The notes under the pieces are model-generated. The model saw nothing but the letters and a program-made list of their open reading frames with translations. It was not told where the DNA came from and ran no database searches. Source: Norana najaformis (lineage: Eukaryota; Annelida; Clitellata; Crassiclitellata; Hormogastridae). From it: a DNA stretch of 64,000 nt. The translations under genes were made by a program, and so were the position numbers. Of this stretch, positions 37,201-38,219 are shown piece after piece (the first letter of the stretch is position 1; the number at the start of each line of letters is the position of its first letter). The stretch lies in assembly GCA_964023275.1 (NCBI GenBank), contig OZ029916.1, positions 37,766,396-37,830,395 on the forward strand, read 5' to 3'.

Positions 37201-38219
37201 ACAAGATGTGTCAAACAACTTGGATACCAATGCCCTGGTCAGAGGTAGGCCTACATATGAAACCAGAGGTAGTGTTTGGCGGATTGATTTTGTAGTGTTC
37301 GATTGATTTTGTGGCAGTGTTTGCAGTGTTTGGCGGATTAATTTTGTAGTGTTCGATTGATTTTGTTGCATTTGATTTATTTTTAGTTTTTGGTTGATTG
37401 ATTTTGTAGTGTTCAATTGATTTTTAGTGTTAAGGTGATTGATTTGTAGTATTTCGATTGATTTTGTTGCTTGAAGGAGTGTTCGATTGATTTTGTTGTC
37501 TTTGACTGATTTTTAGTGTTTGAACGATTGATTTTGTAGTGTTCGGTGAGCTGTGGCTATAAGGGACTGAAGATGAGAGAAGTGCGATGTGTGTGGACAG
37601 CGGATCTGTCGGAAACGGCGACTAACGAAAGCATGTGTTCTCATGAGGTCAAACCAATGACCCAGAAACTCTGCTTCAATCCTCCTTGTGCTAACAGCTG
37701 TAAGTCATCCATCCGTCCGTCCGCCTGCCCCTCACGGCCTCCATTAGTTCATCTATCCATCAATCAATCCATGCATCCAGCCATGCATCCAGCCATGCGT
37801 TATCACTTATCCTACCGACATTCATATCGTAATCGTAATTCCGAGATTTCTACAGCGCCCAACGAAAGCCGCGCCGCGGGGACCAGCTTATTCATAGGCG
37901 CTCAGTCAAAACAAAATCGATAGGCGAAAGGGTTCGGTTCCAGGTCAAGATCCAAAAGTCAGACGGAGAGAAAGCGTGGCAGCTATGGTGGGTGGTGTTT
38001 GGGGTTGGAGAGGAGAGAGAGATAAGAGGAAGAAGGGATGTATCAATTAAGTTAACCGTCAGTGATGTTTAGCATTACTTTTCGATGTTTCTTTCAGACT
38101 GCCGTGATGAATCGCTTTTCTGCTCCAACGTACCACTATTCAGCCTCTGCCACCTCCAAAAGTACTTCCAGAAATGCTGCTACTCGTGTTTAAAGGGATA
38201 TCGACCACAAGCAAACTAG
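28027..38219 (+). CDS. ADAMTSL-type matrix glycoprotein, 3' part (gene span)
   Basis: Eight exons in one continuous frame give 746 codons with a stop at 38217-38219. In order: a Pro-rich lead-in, three thrombospondin type-1 repeats ([28 protein letters not shown]), a charged linker, an Ig domain (LRIFC ... VWMKNG ... TGVYTC), three more TSRs, and a PLAC domain ([12 protein letters not shown] ... KCCYSC). TSR-Ig-TSR-PLAC order is that of ADAMTSL1/ADAMTSL3 (punctins). Papilin is the other family with TSR, Ig and PLAC, but no Kunitz domain is visible. These proteins are secreted to the matrix, lack a protease domain, and are linked to fibrillin microfibrils in vertebrates. The 5' exons (signal peptide, first TSR, Cys-rich, spacer) are not visible in this window and may lie far upstream in the repeat desert, or be missing. 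Confidence 0.88.
28285..28440. repeat. CGT/CAT/CCT trinucleotide repeats in intron
   Basis: Interrupted trinucleotide runs just after the donor of the first ADAMTSL exon. Confidence 0.85.
28495..28632. repeat. (AAT)n microsatellite
   Basis: About 130 bp of AAT with a few AAC units, within an ADAMTSL intron. Confidence 0.95.
28778..28910 (+). CDS. ADAMTSL exon: rest of TSR-a
   Basis: Acceptor TTCCCGTAG|GGATCG and donor AAGCCGT|GTGAGT. It encodes [20 protein letters not shown] and PCWQAKC, completing the six-cysteine TSR. Phase 2 out (GT), joined to A of the next exon to give Val. Confidence 0.9.
28921..29205. repeat. (CATA)n/(ACAC) array in intron
   Basis: CATACATA with TAGGTA and ACACA interruptions begins ten bases after the donor of the preceding exon. 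Confidence 0.93.
29310..29500 (+). repeat. dispersed repeat D, copy 2
   Basis: Matches 26145-26345 in the blocks TTTGTGATTACAATTACA, CGTATCTGACCCAGGC and AAGCTCTGATATGCCAAAAC. Confidence 0.75.
30360..30990. repeat. degenerate CCAATCCAAC array with inserted repeat C
   Basis: Loose CCAATCCAACC/CCCAACTCAA units at 30360-30620 and 30870-30990 are split by an unrelated block containing repeat C. Confidence 0.7.
30748..30868 (+). repeat. dispersed repeat C, copy 1
   Basis: Contains CGCCCATTCAAACGGGCAG, GGTGAAGGATC and AGGCCATACGGTCGCTATAG, all shared with 42838-42968. Confidence 0.8.
31420..31505. repeat. AGT/AGC trinucleotide repeat in intron
   Basis: Short interrupted AGTAGTAGT run within the long ADAMTSL intron. 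Confidence 0.8.
31610..31745 (-). mobile_element. SINE family A fragment in intron
   Basis: Minus-strand copy with the CAGCCAT...GACTTCATTTTC and TTTATAGCTGAGTTCGC blocks. The tRNA-like head is not recognisable. Confidence 0.6.
31842..32043 (+). CDS. ADAMTSL exon: TSR-b and start of TSR-c
   Basis: Acceptor GCGTGCTTAG|ATGGG. It encodes [15 protein letters not shown] through CNSDACP (full TSR), then QWHAGQWSK. Reading continues into CSKSCGTG only if the intron begins GCCAGT after AAG, a GC-AG intron. The nearby GT at 32048 would leave the wrong phase. Confidence 0.85.
32158..32240. repeat. (CAT)n microsatellite in intron
   Basis: About 70 bp of pure CAT. Confidence 0.93.
32401..32536 (+). CDS. 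ADAMTSL exon: rest of TSR-c
   Basis: Acceptor GGTTGTGCAG|TGTTCG and donor GATCGG|GTAGGA, phase 0 in and 1 out. It encodes [18 protein letters not shown] and ends [11 protein letters not shown], a complete TSR core. Confidence 0.92.
32570..32775. repeat. degenerate ATCAATCGATC and AAGT short repeats in intron
   Basis: Loosely tandem TCAATC/ATCGATC words pass into (CAAG)n and (TAAG)n runs. Confidence 0.6.
32778..32906. repeat. (TTA)n microsatellite in intron
   Basis: About 128 bp of TTA with one TGATTA change, ending 17 bases before the acceptor of the large exon. Confidence 0.95.
32924..33981 (+). CDS. ADAMTSL large exon: linker, Ig domain, TSR-d, start of TSR-e
   Basis: Acceptor CATTTTCCAG|ACTCTG and donor TGGAAACAG|GTACGT, phase 1 in and 0 out, 352 whole codons. 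An Arg/Ser-rich then acidic linker leads to an Ig domain at about 33370-33600 (Cys in LRIFCRSN, Trp in SSVWMKNG, Cys in TGVYTCLRG). A possible helical stretch follows ([13 protein letters not shown]). Next is TSR-d (SDWSRCQCG ... CSKACY) and NWTVGDWKQ, the start of TSR-e. TSR-d has CQCG in place of CSxxCG. Confidence 0.9.
34025..34128. repeat. (GTAT)n microsatellite in intron
   Basis: GTATGTATG with GCATGTTT interruptions begins about 40 bases after the donor. Confidence 0.9.
34130..35590. other. intron DNA, no exon seen
   Basis: Part of the 3.1-kb intron between the large exon and TSR-e. Contains CGCGCTATATAAAG near 34364. Short open frames lack domain matches. Confidence 0.45.
35593..35817. 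repeat. (AT)~112 microsatellite in intron
   Basis: About 225 bp of uninterrupted AT, self-complementary and able to extrude as a cruciform. The length is likely polymorphic or assembly-limited. Confidence 0.97.
36482..36612. repeat. (TATG)n/(CTGT)n repeat in intron
   Basis: GTATGTATG and CTGTCTGT runs with interruptions. Confidence 0.9.
36655..36925. repeat. pentamer (CCAGA)n with 110-bp higher-order unit
   Basis: CCAGACCAGA with CCCGA and CCTGA variants. The variant pattern at 36671 recurs at 36781, and that at 36731 recurs at 36841, so a 110-bp unit (22 pentamers) is itself tandemly duplicated. Confidence 0.88.
37059..37244 (+). CDS. ADAMTSL exon: rest of TSR-e, start of TSR-f
   Basis: Acceptor TTTCTGCAG|TGTTCT and donor TCAGAG|GTAGGC, phase 0 both ends, 62 codons. 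It encodes [20 protein letters not shown] through CPYKMCQ, then [13 protein letters not shown]-e has CSGTPC where others have CSxxCG. Confidence 0.92.
37262..37539. repeat. intron made of degenerate copies of its 3' splice site
   Basis: The 278 bp between two TSR exons contain about ten imperfect copies of GATTGATTTTGTAGTGTTCG. The last copy is the true acceptor and first exon bases (37526-37545). Several internal copies keep TTTGTAG|TGTT and look like decoy acceptors. Confidence 0.88.
37540..37699 (+). CDS. ADAMTSL exon: rest of TSR-f
   Basis: Acceptor GATTTTGTAG|TGTTCG and donor AACAGCT|GTAAGT, phase 0 in and 1 out. It encodes [17 protein letters not shown] and ends [10 protein letters not shown]. 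Confidence 0.92.
37822..38040 (+). mobile_element. SINE family B copy in last intron
   Basis: Shows ATCGTAATTCCGAGATTTC, GGGGACCAGCTTATTCATAG, GGTTCGGTTCCAGGTCAAG and AGCTATGGTGGGTGG. It ends about 55 bp before the PLAC acceptor. Confidence 0.8.
38098..38219 (+). CDS. ADAMTSL terminal exon: PLAC domain
   Basis: Acceptor GTTTCTTTCAG|ACTGCC. A carried T makes Tyr, then [22 protein letters not shown] and QKCCYSC: six cysteines in PLAC spacing. It ends KGYRPQAN and TAG. PLAC domains close ADAMTSL, papilin and some ADAMTS proteins. Confidence 0.92.

Follow-up and report, generated by a model that had tools for sequence, protein, structure and literature searches.

The 295-nt intron between exons TSR-e and TSR-f of an apparently ADAMTSL/madd-4-like gene of Norana najaformis contains a tandem array of imperfect copies of its own 3′ splice site, copies that take in the first bases of the downstream exon as well as the end of the intron. 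The array is genuine and uncommon, and stands out clearly in the statistics. We consider it probably a "mirage"-type minisatellite, that is, one generated by tandem duplication across the intron-exon boundary. The evidence comes from a 64-kb stretch of DNA, referred to here as the window, together with searches of the genome from which it was taken.

The gene lies on the plus strand. Comparison with Pfam showed thrombospondin type 1 repeats (TSR), a terminal PLAC domain and a stretch that is Ig-like, its Ig matches falling under their Pfam cut-offs. When its exons were joined, the best matches among the 20 proteins listed, which came from candidates of limited length, were ADAMTS-like 1 and other arthropod PLAC-domain proteins, and madd-4 was also on that list. 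Exon TSR-f matched the Pfam model TSP1_ADAMTS at 1.5e-10, and exon TSR-e matched it at 1.3e-4 and 22.6 bits, which is under the 23.8-bit cut-off. The TSR-e/TSR-f junction (..WSE to CSVSCG..) aligned without a gap to P0123, a protein that carries no name, and to P0128, which is madd-4. Because both proteins cross the junction gap-free, 37540 is supported as the true exon start, and we infer from reading frame and homologues only that it is the acceptor used. Elsewhere in the window, exon TSR-c, as drawn by eye, apparently ends at a GC donor (CCAAG/GCCAGT, 32044, plus strand), so that the intron after it may be of the GC-AG type. The features of the array-bearing region are given below, with a slash at each splice junction.

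37059..37244, plus strand: exon TSR-e (thrombospondin type 1 repeat), ending ..TGG TCA GAG, ..TGGTCAGAG
37245..37539, plus strand: phase-0 intron of 295 nt, donor GTAGGC, acceptor TTTTGTAG, homologue-consistent junction
37264..37272, plus strand: donor echo CAGAG/GTAG, repeating the CAGAG/GTAG of 37240-37248, 9 nt only
37271..37545, plus strand: tandem array with ten internal degenerate copies of acceptor plus exon start (at least 15/26), 5-6 exon bases included
37282..37301, plus strand: intact candidate decoy 1, GATTGATTTTGTAG/TGTTCG
37336..37355, plus strand: intact candidate decoy 2, GATTAATTTTGTAG/TGTTCG
37396..37415, plus strand: intact candidate decoy 3, GATTGATTTTGTAG/TGTTCA, with a YTRAY motif 34 nt upstream
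37526..37545, plus strand: presumed true acceptor and exon start, GATTGATTTTGTAG/TGTTCG
37540..37699, plus strand: exon TSR-f, TGT TCG GTG AGC = CSVS (CSVSCGYKG..), followed by donor GTAAGT
38098..38219, plus strand: last coding exon, with the PLAC domain (2.6e-6) and the stop codon

The intron was scanned with an acceptor probe spanning -16 to +10, and a match of at least 15/26 was counted as a copy. Ten internal copies were found, compared with a mean of 1.70 and a maximum of 7 in 1000 Markov-1 resamples of the intron, and the best internal copy reached 21/26 against a resample maximum of 20. The sequence-only reading had described the intron as about ten copies of its own 3′ splice site with a unit joining the true acceptor to the opening bases of the exon; both descriptions held, the matches extending 5-6 bases into the exon. 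The repeat unit comprises about 14 intronic and 5-6 exonic bases. Tandem Repeats Finder reported 37282-37545 as an array of period 19 (14.1 copies, 61% matches, 25% indels, score 104) and, in a second reading, 37355-37540 as an array of period 41 (score 139).

That reading had also counted at least three internal copies that keep TTTTGTAG/TGTT, and the number proved to be exactly three. These three equal the true site over TTTTGTAG/TGTTC in exact boundary register, and all four sites are identical across the last 9 intron and the first 5 exon bases. The string TTTTGTAGTGTT occurs at 37288, 37342, 37402 and 37532, of which 37532 belongs to the real site, and both strands of the window are otherwise free of it. 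A fourth internal AG/TGTTCG, at 37479, lacks the TTTTGT tract. Longer blocks are repeated too, with 96% identity over 46 nt between 37271-37316 and 37325-37370, and 88% identity over 67 nt between 37348-37414 and 37478-37544, the second of which includes the true acceptor. In this one assembly, the block identities suggest repeated block duplication up to the exon edge, i.e. turnover. A donor-side array at TSR-e was considered and rejected, as no copy reached 14/22 with a donor probe of 22 nt and the 9-nt echo was the only repetition; the GT at 37269 within the echo, if used, would add 24 nt in frame and stop-free (VGLHMKPE).

The repeat is not widespread in the genome; wide occurrence away from this exon was what the sequence-only reading had named as counting against it. 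In one search of the Norana najaformis assembly (608,420,607 bases in 17 contigs), the array DNA matched only itself and C14:12778558 (68%, E 3.8e-6); the search skips very common words, and its result counts against wide occurrence of the full unit but leaves room for relatives that are short and simple. The second match lies in a 15-bp TTTGATTCGATTGAT array, and we rejected it as a further copy when its letters were read by eye, since it is an unrelated array of similar composition without the TAG/TGTTC part. Also on contig C14, a 34-copy array of a 70-bp unit adjoins a GATT-rich 15-bp array (L003 1-2403).

Searching the same genome for TSP1_ADAMTS gave at least 66 matches, with 150 out of 230 initial candidates scored, and 34 of the 66 had a phase-0 AG/TGY acceptor at the match start; the 32 without one were dropped. 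The exon begins with TGTTC at 26 of these 34 acceptors, our own site included, and therefore the exon start is a constrained Cys-Ser code. Because this code is conserved, the direction of copying would be from exon to array, and most likely the intronic copies took TGTTC from the exon. None of the other 33 TSR acceptors had an acceptor array at p<0.005, with L066 alone reaching p 0.03, and we dropped the idea that this genome forms such arrays generally. Since just one of the 34 TSR acceptors has an array, the feature is occasional; it recurs, and is neither unique nor general.

Recurrence was seen within the window itself, where laminin-alpha-like and DIS3L2-like genes lie on the minus strand. 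Copies were sought in the 300 nt upstream of 22 window acceptors (7 ADAMTSL-like, 1 DIS3L2-like and 14 laminin-like), with 6000 AG sites drawn at random from the window, array-internal AGs included, as the control. Three of the 22 reached p<0.005, namely 37540 (p 0.0018), 43592 (p 0.0018) and 42196 (p 0.0002), for a binomial probability of 1.8e-4. With our own site left out, 2 of 21 window acceptors passed, and because these stand beside 0 of 33 at the other TSR acceptors, the excess of acceptor arrays outside the 37540 site is small. For the laminin-like gene, splice sites were placed by eye with open frames and signals as the guide, and identity in the laminin matches is just 21-29%. The features at these minus-strand sites are the following.

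43593..43981, minus strand: laminin-alpha-like intron with five internal copies of acceptor plus exon start (at least 15/26), hand-drawn model
42185..42267, minus strand: 42-bp tandem duplication (2.0 copies, 95%) at a laminin-G-like exon acceptor, TTATTTTCCAG/TCAAGAACAGAC, hand-drawn model
54376..54614, minus strand: possible donor-side array of a laminin-like exon, CTACAAG/GTATGT (intron from 54604), with further copies at +137 and at +217

The first of these introns, whose exon starts at 43592, has five copies against a null mean of 0.64 and maximum of 4, the best of them reading TTTACCTTTATCAG/GTAAAGGTAT. Provided that the drawn phase of 0 is correct, every one of its 30 upstream AGs would run into a stop. 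At 42196, the upstream copy at 42238 would, if used, add 14 codons, in frame and stop-free, and 42185-42267 is a recent duplicate splice site, possibly a tolerated one. Donor-side copies were found at p<0.005 at none of the 16 donors tested (17 were listed). Two of the 16 had p<0.05, one being 54604, where copies of 17/22 and 16/22 (null 99% = 15) gave p 0.02, which is suggestive only of a donor-side array. Among 15 laminin anchors, 14 within 50 kb past the window end and one at 63777, 11 had a candidate acceptor, for 20 AGs in total, and 1 of the 20 had p<0.005 (T-rich, p 0.004, at 83641 in continued window numbering). Complex local repeats are not generally enriched at splice sites in the window, as only two of eight contain a listed splice site. 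A separate 22-bp repeat of about 2.7 copies with a donor-like GCTGCTACAG/GTGAGA is present at 4579-4645 on the minus strand.

A GATT/TTTTG-rich minisatellite of the ordinary intronic kind could end at the exon by chance, with the shared TGTTC a coincidence, as TSR exons often start with TGTTC. The genome holds a GATTGATTTT-like array in at least one further place, the window has many microsatellites, and six of its eight complex local repeats hold no listed splice site, all of which would suit this explanation; however, three internal copies carry TAG/TGTTC in exact boundary register, and the 43592 and 42196 introns share the anatomy of the 37540 intron while copying different exon-specific sequence at their acceptors. 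We consider the chance explanation unlikely.

The array has a good known parallel and shows no new mechanism. As described in the portions of the amphioxus reports that concern them, mirages are minisatellite-like tandem duplications spanning an intron-exon boundary in Adh3, the globin genes BflGb6 and BflGb9, and PGBD5; many have AG/GT signals, their lengths vary, and both donor and acceptor boundaries are affected (PMC3087553, PMC3902484). Unit lengths there are 10-72 bp in Adh3 and 150-160 bp in globins (PMC3087553). Like these, the unit at 37271..37545 spans the intron-exon boundary with TTTTGTAG/TGTTC, the array holds three intact internal acceptor copies, and its periods of 19 and 41 nt are within the reported range. 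Unlike them, it fills most of its intron, and its present host groups with annelids. The array thus has those anatomical features of a mirage that were tested, a likeness known here from the sequence of one assembly; counting against this reading, only 5-6 exon bases are copied at the TSR-f site. No mirage case from annelids was found in the literature searched, which targeted annelids only in part. Intronic minisatellites occur in earthworm metallothionein genes, and copying of splice sites is not stated in the relevant part of that report (PMC12783039).

The DIS3L2-like gene includes an intronless coding exon of about 750 codons (6232-8502, minus strand). The top matches of the protein were at 79-82% and 64%, and 50-59% was reached by proteins of molluscs, annelids and vertebrates, among others. 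An amphioxus origin of the window was considered and rejected, no Branchiostoma being named among the best 120 of 7988 matches. In a tree of the window protein and 19 chosen matches (20 rows), it grouped with Capitella and Lamellibrachia at 98/96, and the annelid Owenia fell outside this group.

A second parallel is the 25-bp VNTR of human ABCA7 intron 18, the first two bases of which are the exon-18 donor. In the sections of the ABCA7 report that describe splicing, retention of a single unit was observed, and exon 19 is skipped more when the VNTR is longer (PMC5954066). The array is like this VNTR as an intronic tandem repeat that incorporates a real splice site; unlike it, with its donor-side position, 25-bp unit, highly variable length and measured splicing effects, the array is on the acceptor side and is known from sequence alone.

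On sequence, the internal copies are supported as candidate decoy acceptors. The sequence-only reading had proposed that the intron must either tolerate mis-splicing or mark the correct site by position, and its interpretation stood in part: the repeat unit and the three matching copies were as it described, and tolerance in the sense of a normal protein is unlikely, as all 16 of 16 upstream AGs, joined to the drawn donor at 37245, yield an in-frame stop. AT-rich introns are stop-rich anyway, and such stops are expected and by themselves no sign of selection. Marking of the true site by position is possible. The consensus of the branch-like motif is YTRAY, which in the intact units lies 8 nt from their own AG and which precedes the true AG by 30 and 34 nt. 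A YTRAY 15-40 nt upstream is present at one intact decoy, 37409 (at 34 nt), and absence of the motif may weaken the other two, 37295 and 37349. Several weaker upstream AGs also have YTRAY at 15-40 nt, and a branch-motif rule that would single out the true site was rejected because 37409 and other AGs have the motif at 26-34 nt.

Four of the seven in-register internal copies carry a changed A in their AG, compared with 1 change among the 84 cells of the 12 preceding columns. Three further internal copies are out of register and outside this count, and all three have the AG. The copies are related by descent, so the independent AG losses may be as few as two, few events having been inherited by several copies.

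These counts bear on the idea that the array is a working regulator, in which decoys would divert splicing into stop-bearing, degraded transcripts and copy number would tune output. Such a role is quite unlikely: three intact decoys and other AGs do remain, each upstream AG leads to a stop, and ABCA7 offers a donor-side precedent for one-unit retention and length-dependent exon skipping, but the loss of AG in four of seven in-register copies suggests that decoys are shed, not kept. Moreover, the pertinent passages of the sources report that amphioxus mirages do not disturb regular splicing (PMC3087553) and that ABCA7 unit retention did not vary with VNTR size (PMC5954066). Distinctly improbable is a decoy ladder read by position, in which the branch-like motif of each unit, too near its own AG, would serve a later AG, RNA from decoy use would be degraded, and copy number would tune expression of the matrix gene.

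It is very improbable that the whole intron was gained recently from a tandemly duplicated exonic proto-splice site (the Rogers model), for although tandem duplication is able to create introns, according to the part of the source that treats it (PMC4974935), the array start CAGAG-GTAG-TGTTTGGCGG resembles an exon junction plus a tiny insert, and CAG/GTAAAG, acceptor- and donor-like together, stands in two units of the laminin-like intron at 43592, the unit is mostly intronic rather than drawn from an exonic AGGT segment, and the intron position looks old because the same phase-0 place before a Cys codon is common to TSR-d (32401), TSR-e (37059) and 33 other TSR exons. As in intron gain of that kind, the duplication involves splice signals; unlike it, the duplication would enlarge an existing intron. 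Because the intron position matches that of other TSR exons, the array looks like expansion of a pre-existing intron, not intron gain.

Under the mirage-type interpretation, an old TSR intron would have undergone repeated tandem duplication of a piece of about 19 nt straddling the 3′ splice site, and larger blocks built of such pieces would have been duplicated too. The copy adjoining the exon body would stay the working acceptor, since its use alone preserves the frame and since exon definition would recognise the short exon, helped by a strong GTAAGT donor, as a unit. The remaining copies would be free to decay, with the AG lost in some, and mis-spliced RNA would presumably be removed by surveillance decay.

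The array is relevant to splice-site choice and to minisatellite evolution; alone, it leaves the understanding of splicing unchanged. With it, the known range of this amphioxus phenomenon extends to an animal that is apparently distant. One 295-nt intron with three decoys and a true site is a natural test of splice-site choice, and the contrast within the same window between arrays whose misuse would lead to stops (37540 and 43592) and an in-frame, open duplicate (42196) provides a ready comparison.
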